Made by a program: the position numbers and the translations under genes
Shown here: in pieces, positions 16,490-62,126 of the stretch
Layout of the letters: each line of letters opens with the position of its first letter
How positions within the stretch are numbered: the first letter of the stretch is position 1
Notes under the pieces: model-generated
Told to the model about the DNA's origin: nothing
Databases searched by the model: none
Seen by the model: the letters and a program-made list of their open reading frames with translations, nothing else
Virus record (IMG/VR): IMGVR_UViG_3300020202_000066
Location: 25,960 to 89,959 of that record
From: a virus
DNA length: 64,000 nt
Reading direction: 5' to 3' (one strand)

Positions 16490-16571
16490 TGGGGCCGTGC
16501 CGAATCGAACGGCCAAGCGCGGCGGCATCTGCTCTACAGGCAGACGGTGGATCCCACTCCCCAGCAGCCCC
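16490..16571 (-). tRNA. tRNA-Tyr(GTA)
   Basis: Acceptor GGGGCTG/CGGCCCC, anticodon loop CTGTAGA, T-loop TTCGATT and the long variable arm expected for bacterial tRNA-Tyr. Discriminator A. Confidence 0.85.
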
Positions 16572-16581
16572 GGGAACCGAA

Positions 16582-16658
16582 GTACCGCCAGCGGGATTCG
16601 AACCCGCACTGTCACGACTCTCGATCGTGTGCCTCTGCCAGGTTGGGCTACGGCGGCA
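16582..16658 (-). tRNA. tRNA-like gene, anticodon GAG (irregular)
   Basis: Acceptor TGCCGCC/GGCGGTA and T-arm GCGGGTTCGAATCCCGC are sound. The 7-base anticodon loop TCGAGAG gives anticodon GAG (Leu) but with C at position 33, and the variable loop has only five bases, unlike class II tRNA-Leu. Charging identity is uncertain. Confidence 0.65.
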
Positions 16659-16664
16659 AGAAAG

Positions 16665-16748
16665 TACCCGGGGTGGGAGTCGAACCCACAAATGGACTCG
16701 CGTCCGCTGGGTCTGAGCCAGCTGGCTATCCCGTTCGCCTACCCGGGC
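16665..16748 (-). tRNA. tRNA-Leu(CAG)
   Basis: Acceptor GCCCGGG/CCCGGGT, anticodon loop CTCAGAC, long variable arm GGAC-GCGA-GTCC, T-loop TTCGACT. A regular class II tRNA-Leu. Confidence 0.9.
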
Positions 16749-16764
16749 AAGATGAACCGCACCA

Positions 16765-16837
16765 TGCCGACCCGCGGGATCGCACCGCGTTCTCCCGCTC
16801 TTCAGGCGGGCGTGAGGACTACCTTCACCAGATCGGC
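16765..16837 (-). tRNA. tRNA-Phe(GAA)
   Basis: Acceptor GCCGATC/GGTCGGC, anticodon loop CTGAAGA in a CCCGC/GCGGG stem. The T-loop is TGCGATC, with G instead of T at position 55. Confidence 0.82.
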
Positions 16838-16848
16838 GAGAGATCGCG

Positions 16849-16922
16849 TGCCCGCCCCGGGATTCGAACCCGGAACCTTCCGCTTTTGAGACGGATGCCT
16901 CTACCGGTTGGACCAGGCGGGC
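16849..16922 (-). tRNA. tRNA-like gene, anticodon CAA (irregular)
   Basis: Acceptor GCCCGCC/GGCGGGC, anticodon loop CTCAAAA, five-base variable loop, T-loop TTCGAAT. The anticodon is that of Leu(UUG), yet the class II variable arm that leucyl-tRNA synthetase substrates carry is absent. Confidence 0.72.
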
Positions 16923-16927
16923 GAGAG

Positions 16928-16998
16928 CAGGCCCTGACGGATTCGAACCGCCACCCGACGGGTTGGAGCCGTCGATGCTGCCGTTACACCAAGGACCT
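16928..16998 (-). tRNA. tRNA-Trp(CCA)
   Basis: Acceptor AGGTCCT/AGGGCCT, anticodon loop CTCCAAC in GACGG/CCGTC, discriminator G as in bacterial tRNA-Trp. Confidence 0.88.
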
Positions 16999-17014
16999 GA
17001 GTGGGGAGTGCAGC

Positions 17015-17090
17015 TGGCTCCGGGAGCAGGGATCGAACCTGCGGCGGACCGGTTAACAGCCGGCTGCTCTGCCAACTGAGCTATCCCGGA
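17015..17090 (-). tRNA. tRNA-Asn(GTT), CCA encoded
   Basis: Acceptor TCCGGGA/TCCCGGA, anticodon loop CTGTTAA, discriminator G followed by an encoded CCA. It is the only member of the array in which I see a templated CCA end. Confidence 0.93.
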
Positions 17091-17099
17091 GCGAGCTGG

Positions 17100-17168
17100 T
17101 TGCGGGCCCGGGTGTCGATCCCGGCATTCCAGGCTTATGAGGCCCGGCTGATCGCCGAATCGCCCGCA
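17100..17168 (-). tRNA. tRNA with anticodon CAT (Met or Ile2), short D-arm
   Basis: Acceptor TGCGGGC/GCCCGCA and anticodon loop CTCATAA are clear. The D-region is only about 15 bases and the T-loop is ATCGACA. It could be elongator Met, initiator Met or lysidine-type Ile; not resolvable by eye. Confidence 0.7.
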
Positions 17169-17187
17169 ACGAGTTAGGGCTGGGCCG

Positions 17188-17364
17188 TCAGGCCCCGGGA
17201 TTGAGAAGGCGCAGAAGGCACCAGGCCCATGCGGGCCCGGTAAAGAGGGGGAGCCGCCACAAGTGCGGCCGTGCAGCGGGATAACGCCGAGGGACGGACG
17301 TGGTGGTCGGGAGCGCAGCACCGACCGCGGGCGCTGCCGGGCGGATCGAATGCTGTCCAGTCAT
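17188..17364 (-). CDS. Small ORF inside tRNA array, 58 aa (doubtful)
   Basis: ATG at 17364 after GGAGCC. The C-terminal part is hydrophobic (LWRLPLFTGPAWAWCLLRLL). It occupies most of the 270-base gap between tRNA-Thr(TGT) and the CAT tRNA. Weak evidence; it matches the placement of two other leader ORFs in the array. Confidence 0.35.
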   Translation of the reverse strand: MTGQHSIRPAAPAVGAALPTTTSVPRRYPAARPHLWRLPLFTGPAWAWCLLRLLNPGA

Positions 17365-17435
17365 CGGTGGCTCCTCGGGGCACGTCAGGCCCTCGGGGTC
17401 GACGTAGGATCCGACGGCGGCGGTGGGTGCAATAA

Positions 17436-17506
17436 AGGCCCCAGAGAGAATCGAACTCTCGCCACCGGGTTACAAAGCCGGCGCTCGACCTTCGAGCTAT
17501 GAGGCC
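17436..17506 (-). tRNA. tRNA-Thr(TGT)
   Basis: Acceptor GGCCTCA/TGGGGCC, anticodon loop TTTGTAA, T-arm GAGAGTTCGATTCTCTC. The innermost anticodon-stem pair is a C-C mismatch. Confidence 0.82.
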
Positions 17507-17510
17507 GAAG

Positions 17511-17582
17511 AGCCCTGACGGCGGATCGAACGCCGGTCTGCTGCTTACGAAACAGCCATCCTACCAACTGGACGATCAGGGC
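17511..17582 (-). tRNA. tRNA-Thr(CGT)
   Basis: Acceptor GCCCTGA/TCAGGGC, anticodon loop TTCGTAA in GCTGT/GCAGC, T-loop TTCGATC. Confidence 0.88.
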
Positions 17583-17585
17583 TGA

Positions 17586-17657
17586 AGCTCTCGCCGGGGG
17601 TCGAACCCGGGTTTCGGTCTTACCAAGACCGCGTGCTACCAGCTGCACCACGGGAGC
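17586..17657 (-). tRNA. tRNA-Thr(GGT)
   Basis: Acceptor GCTCCCG/CGAGAGC with one mismatch, anticodon loop TTGGTAA in CGGTC/GACCG, T-loop TTCGACC. Third threonine isoacceptor in a row. Confidence 0.87.
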
Positions 17658-17661
17658 GGAG

Positions 17662-17733
17662 TGCGGGTCGAGCGAGTCGAACGCTCTCATCCAGTTTGGA
17701 AGACTGGCATGCAACCACCAACATCTGGCCCGC
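17662..17733 (-). tRNA. tRNA-Gly(TCC)
   Basis: Acceptor GCGGGCC/GACCCGC with one mismatch, anticodon loop CTTCCAA in CCAGT/ACTGG, T-arm GAGCGTTCGACTCGCTC. Confidence 0.87.
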
Positions 17734-17743
17734 ATGAAACTGA

Positions 17744-17816
17744 AGTGCCCGGCGGGGCTCGAACCCGCGACCTCCTCGTTGGCAACGAGGCGTTCCGCCA
17801 ACCGAACTCCGAGCAC
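17744..17816 (-). tRNA. tRNA-Gly(GCC)
   Basis: Acceptor GTGCTCG/CGGGCAC, anticodon loop TTGCCAA in CCTCG/CGAGG, T-loop TTCGAGC. Confidence 0.9.
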
Positions 17817-17820
17817 AGGA

Positions 17821-17893
17821 TGTGGCGAGAGGGAGTCGAACCCTCGTGACCGGATTCACAGCCCGGCGCCTGTACCGCTCGGCCATCGCCACC
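17821..17893 (-). tRNA. tRNA-His(GTG)
   Basis: Acceptor GTGGCGA/TCGCCAC with an extra 5' G as expected for tRNA-His, anticodon loop CTGTGAA, T-loop TTCGACT. Discriminator is A rather than the usual C. Confidence 0.87.
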
Positions 17894-17914
17894 ACGATCA
17901 GCACTCGAACCTGG

Positions 17915-17988
17915 CGAACATGATGGGACTCGCACCCACTTTCTCCGGCGTGACGGGCCGGCGTCTCGACTGCTTCGACCTCATGTCC
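17915..17988 (-). tRNA. tRNA-Asp(GTC), C33 variant
   Basis: Acceptor GGACATG/CATGTTC, anticodon stem CCGGC/GCCGG with loop CCGTCAC, so position 33 is C instead of T. The T-loop is TGCGAGT. Discriminator G fits Asp. Confidence 0.75.
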
Positions 17989-17992
17989 GTAG

Positions 17993-18066
17993 TTCGCCCG
18001 GAGGGACTCGAACCCCCGAAATGGCTGGGTGTAGGCCAGCTGCCTTTGCCGCTTGGCGACGGGCGA
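17993..18066 (-). tRNA. tRNA-Val(TAC), C33 variant
   Basis: Acceptor TCGCCCG/CGGGCGA, anticodon stem GCTGG/CCAGC with loop CCTACAC (C33), T-loop TTCGAGT. Confidence 0.78.
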
Positions 18067-18071
18067 ATGGA

Positions 18072-18142
18072 TGGAGCTCCAGGGAATCGAACCCTGATCT
18101 GCCGGGTGCAAGCCGACCGTCCTCCCGTTGAACGAGAGCCCC
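18072..18142 (-). tRNA. tRNA-Ala(TGC)
   Basis: Acceptor GGGGCTC/GAGCTCC, anticodon loop CTTGCAC, T-loop TTCGATT. Its 5' end begins directly after the T-run of an intrinsic terminator at 18144-18181. Confidence 0.9.
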
Positions 18143-18143
18143 A

Positions 18144-18181
18144 GAAAGAGAAACCCCCGGGCCAGGTGAGTGGTCCGGGGG
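18144..18181 (-). terminator. Intrinsic terminator/attenuator directly before tRNA-Ala
   Basis: On the minus strand CCCCCGGACCA/TGGCCCGGGGG forms an 11-bp stem followed by TTTCTCTTTC. The U-run ends one base before tRNA-Ala begins, so the cluster below can only be transcribed by read-through or by attenuation control. Confidence 0.75.
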
Positions 18182-18206
18182 CCTTGAGCGCGCTCTTCAG
18201 TTCGCG

Positions 18207-18284
18207 CTACAGGGCGGACCACCCGCCGGCATCGACGCCGGCCGCGTGTGCGGTCGTCCCTGTGTGCACAGTGAAGAGCAGCAT
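18207..18284 (-). CDS. Leader-type small ORF, 25 aa
   Basis: ATG preceded by GATAGGAGACGACC, a strong ribosome-binding site. The peptide opens MLLFTVHTGTTAHAAG and ends 25 bases before the terminator stem. Position and size suit a leader peptide; the same plan recurs at 19265-19333. Confidence 0.5.
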   Translation of the reverse strand: MLLFTVHTGTTAHAAGVDAGGWSAL

Positions 18285-18323
18285 GGTCGTCTCCTATCAC
18301 GGTCGTGGCTATCGCGGTGCAAG

Positions 18324-18395
18324 TCCTCGCGGAGAGATTCGAACTCCCAGCCGTCTGGTTCGAAGCCAGCCGCTCTTCCGCTGAGCTACGCGAGG
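18324..18395 (-). tRNA. tRNA-Arg(TCG)
   Basis: Acceptor CCTCGCG/CGCGAGG, anticodon loop CTTCGAA, T-loop TTCGAAT. The outermost anticodon-stem pair is G-A. Confidence 0.87.
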
Positions 18396-18399
18396 ATGA

Positions 18400-18472
18400 T
18401 GTACCCGGCAAGGCTCGAACTTGCGGCCGCCCTGGTAGGAACAGGGTGCTCCTCCGACTGAGCTACGGATGC
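18400..18472 (-). tRNA. tRNA-Arg(CCT)
   Basis: Anticodon loop TTCCTAC in CCCTG/CAGGG, T-arm GCAAGTTCGAGCCTTGC; acceptor GCATCCG/CGGGTAC has one mismatch. Confidence 0.86.
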
Positions 18473-18494
18473 AGGAGCCACACACGGGAACTGG

Positions 18495-18569
18495 TCTGCG
18501 CGGAGGGACTCGAACCCCCGGTCTCCTGCTCCCAAGGCAGGCGCTTTCGCCAGGCTAAGCTACGCGCAG
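18495..18569 (-). tRNA. tRNA-Pro(TGG)
   Basis: Acceptor CTGCGCG/CGCGCAG, anticodon loop CTTGGGA in CCTGC/GCAGG, T-loop TTCGAGT, discriminator A. Confidence 0.9.
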
Positions 18570-18572
18570 AGA

Positions 18573-18643
18573 TGCACCCACGTGGAATCGAACCACGGGC
18601 TCGGTCTTCGGAGGACCGCATCCTTCCTCTGGACGATGGGTGC
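18573..18643 (-). tRNA. tRNA-Arg(CCG)
   Basis: Acceptor GCACCCA/TGGGTGC, anticodon loop CTCCGAA in CGGTC/GACCG, T-loop TTCGATT. Confidence 0.89.
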
Positions 18644-18648
18644 TGCTT

Positions 18649-18720
18649 GGTGCCTCTGTCGGGAGTCGAACCCGATGGGCAGCCTTCGCAGGGCTGCCTC
18701 CAATCCCCTGGCAGAAGCAC
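18649..18720 (-). tRNA. tRNA-like, anticodon GCG (irregular, Arg codons)
   Basis: Anticodon loop CTGCGAA in CAGCC/GGCTG; T-arm TCGGGTTCGACTCCCGA. Nine pairs can form in the acceptor (GTGCTTCTG/CAGAGGCAC) and the D-stem is only three pairs (CCA/TGG), so the fold is not standard. GCG reads CGC and CGU (Arg). Confidence 0.65.
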
Positions 18721-18725
18721 GGAAG

Positions 18726-18797
18726 TAGGCCGTCGTGGTGCTGCCCCACGCTCCTCCGACTTATAAGGTCGGCGCTCTGCTGATGAGCTAACGGCCC
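18726..18797 (-). tRNA. tRNA-Ile(TAT), unusual T-loop
   Basis: Acceptor GGGCCGT/ACGGCCT, anticodon loop CTTATAA in CCGAC/GTCGG. The T-loop is GGCAGCA in CGTGG/CCACG, lacking the TTC core. Confidence 0.75.
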
Positions 18798-18946
18798 AGA
18801 TGGCCGGGAAGCGTGGAGCTATATACGCCGTCGGGGAGACGGCACCGGGGGTGGGCAGAATGGTCGCCTCGGGGCGAAGCTGGTGAGTGCGATGTGGGCG
18901 ACCATGGTCCAGCGTAGCGCGCACGCGCGGTGGCTGGTGCAGATGA

Positions 18947-19033
18947 CGGAGAGCCAGAGACTCGAACTCTGACGCGGTGAACCGCCCGCCGGGTAGCAAC
19001 CGGGGCCCGATACCAGTTACGGGATAGCTCTCC
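18947..19033 (-). tRNA. tRNA-Ser(GCT)
   Basis: Acceptor GGAGAGC/GCTCTCC, anticodon loop TTGCTAC, long variable arm (GGGCGGTTCACCGC), T-loop TTCGAGT, discriminator G. Confidence 0.87.
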
Positions 19034-19041
19034 AGGAACAG

Positions 19042-19122
19042 AGGAGGGCGGAGGTGTCGATCCCCGAGCCCGAAGGCCCCACCGTTTTCAAGACGGCTTG
19101 CCGCGCCGGCGGCGCGCCCTCC
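19042..19122 (-). tRNA. tRNA-Ser(TGA)
   Basis: Acceptor GGAGGGC/GCCCTCC, anticodon loop CTTGAAA, long variable arm GGGCC-TTC-GGGCTC. T-loop ATCGACA, so T54 is replaced. Confidence 0.8.
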
Positions 19123-19136
19123 AGGAACAACACCAG

Positions 19137-19206
19137 AACGCTGGCCGGGAATCGAACCCGGGCCGGTACCTTTGCAGGGCACCTCCGCGCCACGCGAATC
19201 CAGCGC
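19137..19206 (-). tRNA. tRNA-Cys(GCA)
   Basis: Acceptor GCGCTGG/CCAGCGT, anticodon loop CTGCAAA, T-arm CCGGGTTCGATTCCCGG. Its 5' end abuts the T-run of the terminator at 19207-19246. Confidence 0.88.
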
Positions 19207-19246
19207 AAAGAGAAAGCCCCCGGCGGTCCTGTGACTGCCGGGGGCT
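19207..19246 (-). terminator. Intrinsic terminator/attenuator directly before tRNA-Cys
   Basis: AGCCCCCGGC/GCCGGGGGCT on the minus strand is a perfect 10-bp stem followed by TTTCTCTTT. As before tRNA-Ala, there is no room for a promoter between the U-run and the tRNA. Confidence 0.78.
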
Positions 19247-19264
19247 CTCGATCCTGCGTCGTCG

Positions 19265-19333
19265 TCAGGGCGTCGAGACTCCCGGCCAGCCGGCGCCGCG
19301 GGAACTCGACGAACAGGTGACGATGCGGATCAT
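19265..19333 (-). CDS. Leader-type small ORF, 22 aa
   Basis: ATG after GGATAGGAGCAGACC, almost the same ribosome-binding context as the leader at 18284. The peptide starts MIRIVTCSSSSRGAG. A 6-bp hairpin (CCGCGT-CCCG-ACGCGG) lies just upstream and the terminator just downstream. Confidence 0.5.
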   Translation of the reverse strand: MIRIVTCSSSSRGAGWPGVSTP

Positions 19334-19409
19334 GGTCTGCTCCTATCCGCGTCGGGACGCGGTGGGTGCACGCTCGGGCGATCGAAGGAGGTTCACGGGG
19401 GGGAAGAGG

Positions 19410-19712
19410 CTAGACGCCGACGGAGACGACCTTTCCCAGGATCGCGGTCCGCTTGACCCAACCGTTGATGCGGCCGATGTTGTTCCCGATGAGAGCTCGG
19501 TCTCCCTGCAGCTGCTTGACCAGATGCAAGAGGAATCCTCCACGCCAGCGGACGAACACCGCGTCTCCGACCGCTACGGCCATGGGATCGACCGGCGCGA
19601 TGGTCACGAGCTCGCCGCTCTCGATCCGGCCGCGCATCGACCCCCCGAGCGGACGAACCTTCGCGACTCGACCAGCAGAGATCTCCCGCAGCGCATCCGA
19701 TGCCCAGCCCAT
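19410..19712 (-). CDS. S24/S26-like peptidase within tRNA array, 100 aa
   Basis: After a short helix, VRPLGGSMRGRIESGELV carries the Ser of a LexA/signal-peptidase G-S-M motif. The later FLLHLVKQLQGDRALIGNN holds the Lys expected of the Ser-Lys dyad, and FVRW precedes it. These are S24/S26 features, but there is no DNA-binding domain and no membrane anchor. It is probably a self-acting or regulatory fold. The ATG follows GGAGGAG. Substrate unknown. Confidence 0.72.
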   Translation of the reverse strand: MGWASDALREISAGRVAKVRPLGGSMRGRIESGELVTIAPVDPMAVAVGDAVFVRWRGGFLLHLVKQLQGDRALIGNNIGRINGWVKRTAILGKVVSVGV

Positions 19713-19801
19713 CGCCTGACTCCTCCGGCGACCTTCGTGCGGCCGCCACCGATGCCGGGCGAGTAGGTCGCGCGCTGCGATTCGGGTGCGCGGATCTCGA
19801 G

Positions 19802-19887
19802 AGGACCGGAAGGGGATCGAACCCTTCGTGCGCCTCGCGGCGCGACGGCTTAAAAGGCCGCTGCCGACACCAGTCGGCCACCGGTCC
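19802..19887 (-). tRNA. Class II tRNA with anticodon TTT (irregular)
   Basis: Acceptor GGACCGG/CCGGTCC, anticodon loop CTTTTAA (TTT, Lys codons), T-loop TTCGATC. A long variable arm (CGCC-GCGA-GGCG) is present, a feature of Leu/Ser/Tyr tRNAs, so anticodon and body disagree. Confidence 0.7.
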
Positions 19888-19889
19888 GA

Positions 19890-19960
19890 TACCCCCGCCA
19901 GGAATTGCACCTGGGTCTCCACGTCATCAGCGTGGCATCCTGCTGTTGAACGACGGGGAT
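19890..19960 (-). tRNA. tRNA-Ile(GAT)
   Basis: Acceptor ATCCCCG/CGGGGGT, anticodon loop CTGATGA in CCACG/CGTGG. T-loop TGCAATT departs from the TTC consensus. Confidence 0.8.
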
Positions 19961-19965
19961 GCGGA

Positions 19966-20037
19966 TGAACCCGCCGGGATTCGCACCCGGATGCCCGGAT
20001 TAAGAGTCCGGTCCGTTGCTGTTACGGTCACGGGTCC
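19966..20037 (-). tRNA. tRNA-Lys(CTT)
   Basis: Acceptor GGACCCG/CGGGTTC, anticodon loop CTCTTAA in CCGGA/TCCGG, short variable loop. T-loop TGCGAAT. Confidence 0.84.
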
Positions 20038-20048
20038 AGAGGAGGGGA

Positions 20049-20121
20049 GCAGCTCCTGATCGTGTCGAGCGATCACCTTCCGGGTCAAAGCCGGACGTGC
20101 AGAGCCGCTACACCAAGCAGC
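20049..20121 (-). tRNA. tRNA-Gln(TTG)
   Basis: Anticodon loop CTTTGAC in TCCGG/CCGGA, discriminator G. Acceptor GGCTGCT/AGGAGCT has one G-G mismatch and the T-loop is CTCGACA. Confidence 0.75.
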
Positions 20122-20130
20122 CGGGGGAGA

Positions 20131-20202
20131 GCAGCCGCCCAGGGAATCGAACCCCGACCCTCTCGGTCAGAACGAGGTGTGCTGCCACTACACCCGGCGG
20201 CT
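20131..20202 (-). tRNA. tRNA-Gln(CTG)
   Basis: Acceptor AGCCGCC/GGCGGCT, anticodon loop TTCTGAC, T-loop TTCGATT, discriminator G. The outermost anticodon-stem pair is C-A. Confidence 0.85.
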
Positions 20203-20397
20203 TCGGAATTGATCCAGCTGGTTGACGGTGGGGCGGTGAAGCGAGAGCAGCGCCTCACTCTTACCCGCCGAGCGCCCTCGGCAGACCCCTCCGCCGACCA
20301 GCTACGCCTGGCGTTGCTGGATGGGTTTGGCCCGTCCGGGCCCGGGAATGCCGGCACCCGCGACGGGCCGACGCTTGAGCAGGAAGGAGCGGAGGAG

Positions 20398-20470
20398 TAG
20401 CCCGCCAGGGACTCGAACCCTGCTTTCCTGGCTGAGAACCAGGTGTCCTGGCCGGATAGACGAGCGGGCC
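20398..20470 (-). tRNA. tRNA-Glu(CTC)
   Basis: Acceptor GGCCCGC/GCGGGCT, anticodon loop TTCTCAG in CCTGG/CCAGG, T-loop TTCGAGT. The 20203-20397 spacer before it shows no gene that I can support. Confidence 0.87.
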
Positions 20471-20476
20471 ATGAGA

Positions 20477-20548
20477 TAGCCCGCCGGAGACTCGAACTCC
20501 GCTTCCCCGTTTGAAGGACGGGGGACTTCACCCATAGTCGAGCGGGCC
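20477..20548 (-). tRNA. tRNA-Glu(TTC), C33 variant
   Basis: The acceptor is identical to that of the neighbouring tRNA-Glu(CTC), suggesting duplication. Anticodon loop CCTTCAA has C at position 33. T-loop TTCGAGT. Confidence 0.8.
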
Positions 20549-25277: not shown

Positions 25278-25844
25278 TCAGTCGACCTCGATCGCGGCGC
25301 GCAGCGTCACCCGCGCCCGACGCAGGGCCGACCGGTGCGCCCCCGAGTGAACTCCCGTCGCCGCGGTGATCTCCCGTTCCTGGTGGCGCTGGATCGGCCC
25401 GAGAATGACGGCGGTCCGCTGCTTCTTCGGCAGCATGTTGATCTTCGCCACCAACCGGGAGAGCACGTCCCGTACCTCGACGGCGATCTCCGGTCCCCGC
25501 TCCGGCCGGTCCGGCGGCTGCACACCCACAGCATCCAGGCTCTCGCACGTGGTCTGCGCAAGGCGCCGGGCCTGCCGCCGGTACCGCATCGACCGGATCA
25601 TCGCGGTGTTCAGCGCCACGCGGTAGAGCCAGGATGAGAAGAGGCTCCGGTGCTGGAACGAGGGGAGAGAGCGGTGGACCTGCAGCCACACGTCCTGCAC
25701 GGCGTCCTCGAGCTCGAACTCAACCACGTACCGTGTGCAGGCTCGCCGGACGAGCGCGACGTGACGGCGGTACAGGGACGCGAAGGCGTCGTGGTCTCCG
25801 GCTGCGGCGAGAGCGACGGCATCGTGGTCCGGGTCGGGCGTCAC
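25278..25844 (-). CDS. ECF-type sigma factor, 188 aa
   Basis: Sigma region 2: FASLYRRHVALVRRACTRYV, then LEDAVQDVWLQVHRSLPSF and SWLYRVALNTAM. Sigma region 4: LPKKQRTAVILGPI, then EREITAATGVHSGAHRSALR. Spacing and length fit extracytoplasmic-function sigma-70 factors, which redirect RNA polymerase to a small promoter set. No anti-sigma gene is evident next to it. It could switch transcription towards late or lysogenic genes. GTG start, AGGAAG upstream. Confidence 0.85.
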   Translation of the reverse strand: MTPDPDHDAVALAAAGDHDAFASLYRRHVALVRRACTRYVVEFELEDAVQDVWLQVHRSLPSFQHRSLFSSWLYRVALNTAMIRSMRYRRQARRLAQTTCESLDAVGVQPPDRPERGPEIAVEVRDVLSRLVAKINMLPKKQRTAVILGPIQRHQEREITAATGVHSGAHRSALRRARVTLRAAIEVD

Positions 25845-35145: not shown

Positions 35146-35268
35146 TCAGTAGTCGATCACCACCGTGGTGAGGATGACTTCCTGAGTGACCTCGGTGACG
35201 ATGGACTCAACTGTAGCCGCGGACACGACGACTTCCTGAGTCACCGTCGTCTCGATGATCGCTGACAT
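35146..35268 (-). CDS. Very small Val/Thr-rich protein, 40 aa
   Basis: Consists of two similar units (TTVTQEVVVS and TEVTQEVILT). It follows the holin-like gene closely. Weak ribosome-binding site; position in the operon supports it. Confidence 0.42.
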   Translation of the reverse strand: MSAIIETTVTQEVVVSAATVESIVTEVTQEVILTTVVIDY

Positions 35269-61225: not shown

Positions 61226-61300
61226 GTGCCTCCGTGGGCCAGTGGCTGGCCAGTCGGCTTCAAACCGATGCAGGCCGGTTCGATCCCGGCCGGGGGCGCA
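61226..61300 (+). tRNA. tRNA with anticodon UCA (UGA-reading; Sec-like body)
   Basis: Anticodon loop CTTCAAA in GTCGG/CCGAT gives UCA, with U33 present. The acceptor can form 8 pairs (GTGCCTCC/GGGGGCGC), the T-stem 6 (GGCCGG/CCGGCC) and the D-stem 6 with a 3-base loop (GGCCAG-TGG-CTGGCC), all features of bacterial tRNA-Sec, but the variable loop has only three bases. It is probably an opal-suppressor or Sec-type tRNA. Discriminator A. Confidence 0.82.
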
Positions 61301-61345
61301 TAGGAGGTCCCCATGGTCTTCACGTGAATCTCCGATCCCGCCTAT
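61301..61345 (+). promoter_or_regulatory. Strong RBS and ATG leading in frame into UGA
   Basis: AGGAGG (61302-61307), a 5-base spacer and ATG at 61313 start M-V-F-T, then UGA at 61325-61327, then I-S-D-P-A-Y straight into the Pth2-like protein in the same frame. The GTG at 61346 has no ribosome-binding site of its own. Either UGA is read by the adjacent tRNA, or a four-codon leader couples reinitiation. Confidence 0.65.
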
Positions 61346-61663
61346 GTGTACGTCCTAGTGCGCTCTGACCTCACGGTTCCGCAGCAGGCAGTGCAGTCTG
61401 CCCATGCCGTGCTTGAGGCATCCCGCCAAGGCCTGATCCCCGCAGGCATCGATCACCCGAATCTCGTCCTCTGCCACGTGTCCGGGTTCACCCAGCTTCT
61501 CGATGAGGCGGAAAATCTCCGCGCGCTGGGAGTTCAGCTGGCCGTCTTCAACGACTCGGATCACAAGTTCCCATCCACCGCTCTCGCAACGGAGCCGATC
61601 CGCGGCGACCGCCGCCGACTCTTCAAACGGTTTAGGCTTCTCAAGGAGGCCATCCATGCCTAG
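61346..61663 (+). CDS. Pth2-like peptidyl-tRNA hydrolase, 105 aa
   Basis: YVLVRSDLTVPQQAVQSAHA, then HPNLVLCHVSGFTQLLDEAE, LGVQLAVFNDSDHKFPSTALA and GDRRRLFKRFRLL follow the Pth2-type fold (VRxDL, QaaHA, aF.epDl...TA.a). Pth2 frees tRNA from peptidyl-tRNA. The conservative start is GTG 61346; the better-supported initiation site is the in-frame ATG 61313 beyond a UGA. The stop overlaps the next gene by 8 bases. Confidence 0.75.
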   Translation: MYVLVRSDLTVPQQAVQSAHAVLEASRQGLIPAGIDHPNLVLCHVSGFTQLLDEAENLRALGVQLAVFNDSDHKFPSTALATEPIRGDRRRLFKRFRLLKEAIHA

Positions 61664-62126
61664 CGCCCAGCCCATCGAACAGCAGCCCGTCACCCATCGC
61701 AGCCGCTGGGGATTCCATCCCTGCAGCCATGCCACCTTCCTGAAGTTGAAGGCGCTCAAGAAGGCGTACTGGGAGGCAGTGCGCGGACTGGCGCGGTGGA
61801 TCCGCTGGAACAGGAAGCTGCCAGCGAACCAGGTGCGAACCGAGATCATCCGAGACACCCAGGGGCGTCCGTGCGGCCGGCGTGTGCTCGGCCCGATCCC
61901 GGAGCCGATCTACTGCCCGGTGTTCGGTCGCGTGACGAAGCTCAACCCGTCCCGGACGGTGCCGGGCCAGCTGGCGGACTACAAGATCGACGAGGCCGTA
62001 GCGATTGCTCGCCGGCCGACCGAGGAGCCGTTCGAGAAGCCACTGCCGATCTCCGAGGCGTTCATCGATGAGCTGTACGATCGGCTCGTGGAGTGGGAGA
62101 GACTGCCGAAGATCAGCGCCGAGTAG
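61656..62126 (+). CDS. Hypothetical protein, 156 aa
   Basis: ATG with AAGGAGG upstream. Basic protein: FLKLKALKKAYWEAVRGLAR, then EIIRDTQGRPCGRRVLGPI, YCPVFGRVTKL and a C-terminal helix (EAFIDELYDRLVEWERL). It overlaps the Pth2-like gene, so it may act in the same process. Unrecognised. Confidence 0.6.
   Translation: MPSAQPIEQQPVTHRSRWGFHPCSHATFLKLKALKKAYWEAVRGLARWIRWNRKLPANQVRTEIIRDTQGRPCGRRVLGPIPEPIYCPVFGRVTKLNPSRTVPGQLADYKIDEAVAIARRPTEEPFEKPLPISEAFIDELYDRLVEWERLPKISAE

Follow-up and report, generated by a model that had tools for sequence, protein, structure and literature searches.

The window, that is the whole 64,000-nucleotide stretch of viral DNA analysed, carries a predicted opal suppressor tRNA gene and, 15 nt past the tRNA body on the same strand, the ATG of a gene for a protein like the peptidyl-tRNA hydrolase Pth2, interrupted by an in-frame TGA (Table 1). 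The gene reads ATG GTC TTC ACG TGA ATC TCC from its start and the Shine-Dalgarno sequence is perfect. The codon after the TGA is ATC, which places A at +4, and with the TGA taken as sense the product is MVFT-X-ISDPAYVYVLVRSDLTVPQQAVQSAHA..., of 116 residues. This TGA was overlooked in the original prediction for the locus.

Table 1. Features of the suppressor tRNA-pth2 locus (window coordinates).
Feature	Position	Strand	Basis
tRNA gene, class I, predicted opal suppressor	61228..61298	+	ARAGORN; RF00005 50.7 bits
Anticodon UCA of the tRNA	61260-61262	+	loop CUUCAAA
Shine-Dalgarno AGGAGG, 5 nt 5' of ATG	61302..61307	+	sequence
Pth2-like gene, MVFT-[UGA]-ISDPAYVYVLVRSDL...EAIHA	61313..61663	+	translation, profile, predicted structure
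In-frame TGA, codon 5, predicted gate	61325..61327	+	position conserved in relatives
GTG, sole alternative start past the TGA	61346..61348	+	ORF list
Downstream ORF; ATG 61656 overlaps the pth2 stop (ATGCCTAG)	61656..62126	+	sequence, ORF list

ARAGORN calls tRNA-SeC(tca) at 61228-61299. The general tRNA model of Rfam, RF00005, aligns over its full length to 61228-61298 and scores 50.7 bits (cut-off 29), with no non-standard pairs; a faster Rfam scan of the whole 64-kb window filtered this tRNA out and a sensitive regional scan recovered it. The covariance model assigns an acceptor stem of 7 bp, a D stem of 4 bp with a D loop of 7 nt, an anticodon stem of 5 bp, a variable region of 4 nt (GCAG) and a T stem of 5 bp. 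The discriminator is G at 61298 and CCA is not encoded. Energy folding of the bare RNA favours a non-cloverleaf structure (-36.5 as opposed to -31.2 kcal/mol for the cloverleaf), a weak point, yet a preference common among GC-rich tRNAs. No close match that might represent a parent tRNA occurs among the 29 other tRNAs that ARAGORN finds in the window.

The UGA-reading anticodon that the original prediction placed here is borne out by ARAGORN and RF00005. The same prediction described an 8-bp acceptor, a 6-bp T stem, a 6-bp D stem with a 3-nt loop and a variable region of three bases. These dimensions give way to the canonical ones above, the longer stems having arisen because chance extra G-C pairs flank the canonical stems (61226-61227 with 61298-61299, and bases of the D loop). 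That the molecule is not tRNA-Sec holds, since the sensitive Rfam scan gave no match to the tRNA-Sec model RF01852, but the Sec-like hybrid body proposed for it does not, the body being canonical class I. Nor does the tRNA fall outside every nameable class: opal and amber suppressor tRNAs of phages are already a known class, and the window tRNA is a canonical class-I opal suppressor. Its anticodon is complementary to a stop codon and a phage gene with the matching in-frame stop is present, the TGA at codon 5 of pth2, with matching pairs in relatives.

A large tRNA array (29 tRNAs by ARAGORN) occupies window positions 16490-20548 on the minus strand, opposite to and apart from the suppressor tRNA, with additional matches by Rfam only at 17915, 18726 and 19966. 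At 19801-19887 on the minus strand ARAGORN assigns an 87-nt tRNA-Lys(ttt) and Rfam a tRNA-Sec, at 51.3 bits and above the cut-off; this tRNA has a long arm and an odd label.

Scored alone against Pfam PF01981 the window protein reaches 15.4 bits and misses the cut-off of 23. The model is matched by 12 of 22 family members (E values up to 0.01, the best 2.4e-11) and a profile of the family matches solved Pth2 structures with an E value of 1.8e-6. The AlphaFold model of the window protein has a pLDDT of 91.6, and the top Foldseek matches to it are Pth2 structures with TM scores of about 0.7, among them 2zv3 (E 3.6e-6) and human Bit1/PTRH2 (E 2.1e-5). Assignment to the Pth2 family is weak for this protein alone and clear for the family and by predicted fold; the protein is a candidate hydrolase. 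In the profile alignment the conserved lysine of the GKGK motif corresponds to glutamine (QQAVQ) in the subfamily of the window; the subfamily of phages Atu_ph07 and Phosso and locus L287 retains GKLA. The GTG past the TGA falls within the first beta strand and no Shine-Dalgarno sequence was seen before it. Because the pth2 stop overlaps the ATG of the next ORF, gating might reach that ORF also, which is possibly coupled translationally to pth2; no PHROG match to it was found.

No nucleotide relatives of the window were found in a phage collection, a scan with one single protein retrieved none and a conserved-block alignment search produced no usable block, conservation being too low. The first relative comes from a jumbo phage, where a CUA tRNA immediately precedes a Pth2 gene that starts ATG ACT TAG ATT, and further relatives in phage records start MTH-TAG, MS-TAG and MK-TAG. 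One Pth2 probe was a hand-typed, consensus-like sequence, used to find records that were then read directly. A scan for the motif QQAVQxxHA led to 112 contigs, and the survey set comprises 95 distinct Pth2-family loci, on viral contigs nearly throughout. With these relatives the check in related phages that the original prediction had proposed comes out in its favour: in them the anticodon, UCA or CUA, and the stop of the adjoining gene vary together.

Two architectures are seen. In the first, an early in-frame stop interrupts the gene itself, as it does in 30 of the 95 loci (TAG in 25, TGA in five and TAA in none). All 30 have an ATG 1-8 codons 5' of the stop, which thus lies at codon 2-9 in every case, and none has an ATG between stop and domain; in 27 this interval is free of GTG and TTG as well. 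The +4 base is a purine at 29 of the 30 stops. Among random long ORFs from similar genomes the same arrangement occurs in 16 of 2,905 (TAA six, TGA seven, TAG three). HD-domain fusions, for example ORF364 of phage XacN1, likewise start MK-TAG.

We note that Phe-Thr precedes the stop, be it TGA or TAG, in the window (MVFT) and in loci L298 (MSGFT), L366 (GFT), L084 (MGFT) and L031 (MSFT). A second in-frame TAG lies within the pth2 domain of L017, L060, L084, L065, L071, L102 and L103. That of L060 aligns with a glutamine of L096 (FIPP-stop-IQHPH compared with LIPPQIEHPH), which suggests that glutamine would be inserted there. Relatives with such additional internal TAGs may be recoded genome-wide.

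In the second architecture the stop resides in a leader. A mini-ORF of the form M-x(1-8)-[TAG or TGA]-...-Pro-Pro-stop, with Lys-Pro-Pro the commonest ending (M-x-[TAG/TGA]-x-x-K-P-P-stop), is present in 27 of the 65 loci whose gene has no early stop. It mostly lies 340-450 nt 5' of pth2, in one case at 109 nt. The background, 17 occurrences in 5.9 Mb, amounts to an expected 0.004 per 1,500 nt, which the loci exceed about 100-fold. In locus L275 the suppressible stop of the leader is TGA and a UCA tRNA lies just 5' of it. A few more loci have looser leaders ending RSP or DPPF. Outside both architectures as defined are 29 of the 95 loci, several of them with looser leaders.

Two other elements occur in this second group. 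Directly 5' of the mini-ORF in L001 (2539-2630) lies an element that resembles a tRNA but whose anticodon arm is abnormal, with equivalents in L002, L005, L009, L010 and L011; possible identities for it are a structured leader, a decoy and a degenerate tRNA. A small conserved ORF with the motif RHxHIAYCLxRGR sits between leader and pth2 in L026, L029, L039, L078, L125 and others; in the L001-L011 group this ORF and Pth2 are fused.

Where stop and suppressor are both visible they match without exception, TGA with UCA in 7 of 7 loci and TAG with CUA in 49 of 49 (Fisher p = 4.3e-9); the suppressor search covered partial sequence for most loci, many contigs being fragments, and some tRNA inventories were added by hand. 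The window, L238, L275 and L298 were found by way of their UCA tRNA, and with these four set aside the match is 3 of 3 against 49 of 49. The remaining TGA loci, L042, L064 and L069, were found through the protein motif and their tRNAs inventoried afterwards. Among the 40 tRNAs of the L064 contig are two with UCA and none with CUA; the L069 contig has one UCA and no CUA, and L042 two UCA in the parts read. In several TAG phages, of which large parts were read, CUA is present and UCA absent. The tRNA of L298 was counted as UCA from its CTTCAAA loop, ARAGORN giving no determined anticodon; this locus has the tRNA-SD-ATG-TGA layout with the Pth2 domain one base out of frame. For L112, which has TAG, no CUA tRNA was found in 234 kb of an incomplete contig. 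In RaK2 and K64-1 the stop is kept, but no ATG precedes it, an ATG follows, and the search near the stop gave no suppressor, a pattern that fits loss of the gate. An ochre (UUA) suppressor tRNA lies near pth2 in L040 and L062, with no visible TAA gate.

On an 87-row protein tree the TGA label requires six changes, at least four of them forced by well-supported branches, and L028 (TAG) and L069 (TGA) are sisters. As each of the approximately six switches to TGA comes with a UCA tRNA, stop and anticodon have switched together repeatedly, and these repeated joint switches show that the pairing is under selection. Comparison of the loci shows, at the level of sequence, that selection keeps a specific stop early in pth2, or in the leader, along with a phage-encoded tRNA predicted to read that stop. 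The tRNA-pth2 pair with matched stop and anticodon is, to judge from these records, a conserved cassette in dozens of unrelated phages.

The arrangement extends to cultured phages. Acinetobacter phage ME3 has MT-TAG with an annotated CUA tRNA 0.5 kb 5', and Salmonella phage Arash ML-TAG with a CUA tRNA 1.3 kb away. An early TAG is present in pth2 of Serratia phage BF, Cronobacter phage GAP32 and Pectobacterium phage CBB, and in Erwinia phage pEa_SNUABM_19 together with a CUA tRNA. The Pth2 gene of Agrobacterium phage Atu_ph07 begins MIGEHF-TGA-INYEEL..., and the tRNA-bearing parts of this genome that were read hold one UCA and no CUA tRNA; in its relative, Sinorhizobium phage Phosso, the gene begins MKY-TAG-VEEK... 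and there are two CUA and no UCA tRNAs. In cluster C (Bxz1-like) mycobacteriophages pth2 starts ATG-TAG-GTG (Cane17) or GTG-TAG-GTG (Myrna) with a CUA tRNA 130-250 nt 3' of the gene, and from the -35/-10 spacing the mRNA is probably leaderless. LinStu retains tRNA-Sup(cta) at the same place though the stretch is unalignable to Cane17. Existing annotations start pth2 after the stop or inside the domain, or miss the gene, which is why the pattern is easily overlooked.

How might such a pair operate? The early in-frame TGA after a perfect Shine-Dalgarno-ATG, beside a UCA tRNA, and the matched pairs of other phages make the tRNA very probably an on-switch for the gene. We consider it highly likely that the tRNA is an opal suppressor with the adjoining pth2-like gene as its dedicated target, the translation of which it would gate. 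The two genes are probably co-transcribed, being on the same strand and 15 nt apart. Ribosomes would start at ATG 61313 and, without charged suppressor, would terminate at UGA after four residues. Once the UCA tRNA has matured from its transcript and a host synthetase has charged it, UGA would be read and Pth2 produced. Such an AND gate on Pth2 through UGA read-through is strongly supported by the conserved arrangement. In the window the gate would be local, with no change of code for the whole phage, because TGA is the commonest stop, ending 32 of 59 crude gene calls. Two ORFs ended by TGA have long, coding-like in-frame extensions, 25278-25844 (minus strand, 338 codons) and 35146-35268 (minus strand, 272 codons), for which additional read-through, a frameshift or a gene fusion are possible.

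With less confidence a role for the enzyme may be proposed. Pth2 would accompany suppression and recycle tRNAs lost as peptidyl-tRNA, so managing side effects of suppression. Since Pth2 would be made only where suppression takes place, the amount of enzyme would report on, perhaps restrain, suppressor activity and so give feedback. In the second architecture the leader peptide would sense read-through by stalling at Pro-Pro-stop. A widespread phage circuit, in which synthesis of stop-gated Pth2 gauges suppression by the direct in-frame gate or by a leader peptide ending Pro-Pro-stop, and the enzyme in turn limits or repairs the harm done by suppression, for instance by hydrolysing peptidyl- or aminoacyl-suppressor tRNA, is a tentative proposal that we regard as possible rather than probable.

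Other explanations should be considered. The early stop could end a tiny upstream ORF, Pth2 being made by re-initiation at a weak start and the suppressor being unrelated or serving other genes. Short ORFs do permit re-initiation in bacteria, the window offers GTG 61346 past the stop and mycobacteriophage records annotate the GTG directly after ATG-TAG. However 27 of the 30 loci with an early stop lack ATG, GTG or TTG from stop to domain, and re-initiation predicts neither the absence of TAA nor the match of stop and anticodon, so that we judge this explanation improbable. A gate that senses shortage of a release factor (RF1 for UAG, RF2 for UGA), to which the tRNA would be incidental, is less probable still. 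It would account for UAA, read by both factors, never being the gate stop, and prfB likewise has an early in-frame stop, but it leaves the pairing of UGA with UCA and UAG with CUA, and the tight linkage of the tRNA, unexplained.

Reassignment of UGA throughout the genome, as in some Crassvirales, with pth2 one of many interrupted genes, is slightly less credible than re-initiation. Phages that combine suppressor tRNAs with genome-wide recoding have been described (PMC12386605, PMC9523058) and some relatives have the second TAG inside pth2. Against this, TGA is no rare terminator in the window, where a crude scan yields only the two long read-through extensions given above; the annotations of cultured relatives, BF, GAP32 and Atu_ph07 among them, list hundreds of standard-code genes; and random recoding would not place the stop at codon 2-9 in every locus of the first architecture. 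That the tRNA is tRNA-Sec-like and UGA specifies selenocysteine is the least credible reading and was rejected. It draws on the ARAGORN label, which that program gives to a UCA anticodon, whereas the tRNA aligns canonically to RF00005 with 7/5 stems and the 4-nt variable region, with no long variable arm and RF01852 unmatched. In addition relatives have UAG with CUA at the same position and the residues flanking the stop lack the conservation that an active site would show. Rfam SECIS families gave no match in the window or the tRNA region.

A phage suppressor tRNA with a conserved, stop-interrupted target gene is what is new here, and the reading of the tRNA as a suppressor gating pth2 gives the lone suppressor tRNAs of phages a concrete target; what such tRNAs are for had been an open question. 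Since pth2 with an early stop also occurs in cultured phages, the reading is testable now. No description of Pth2 gating by a suppressor tRNA was found in the literature searched, which mostly excluded subscription journals and preprints.

Among known systems, autoregulation of prfB (RF2) and leader-peptide attenuation also use an early in-frame stop or a short leader to couple translation status to expression; in prfB the stop is passed by frameshifting, here it would be read through by a cognate phage tRNA. The suppressor tRNAs of Crassvirales and others resemble what is predicted here, a phage UCA or CUA tRNA that reads a stop during infection. There many genes have in-frame stops, whilst here a single family would be gated at codon 2-9, standard-code phages are included and stop and anticodon switch together. 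Why some phages retain seemingly unused suppressor tRNAs has been asked (PMC12386605). XacN1, with two amber (CUA) tRNAs (PMC5852040), and Atu_ph07, with a UCA suppressor (PMC6102473), are likewise tRNA-rich jumbo phages that have a pth gene; neither publication names a target, and those proposed here are XacN1 ORF364 (MK-TAG-TIKAMK...) and the Atu_ph07 Pth2 gene. Pth2 has been noted in jumbo phages (PMC7824862); the archaeal and eukaryotic-type enzymes (PF01981) share fold and sequence profile with the window protein, whose subfamily differs by the glutamine at the GKGK lysine. A synthetic suppressor-tRNA feed-forward loop (PMC7969014) likewise joins a suppressor tRNA to a stop-interrupted gene in an AND gate; that loop was engineered in E. 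coli, whereas the present case is apparently natural.
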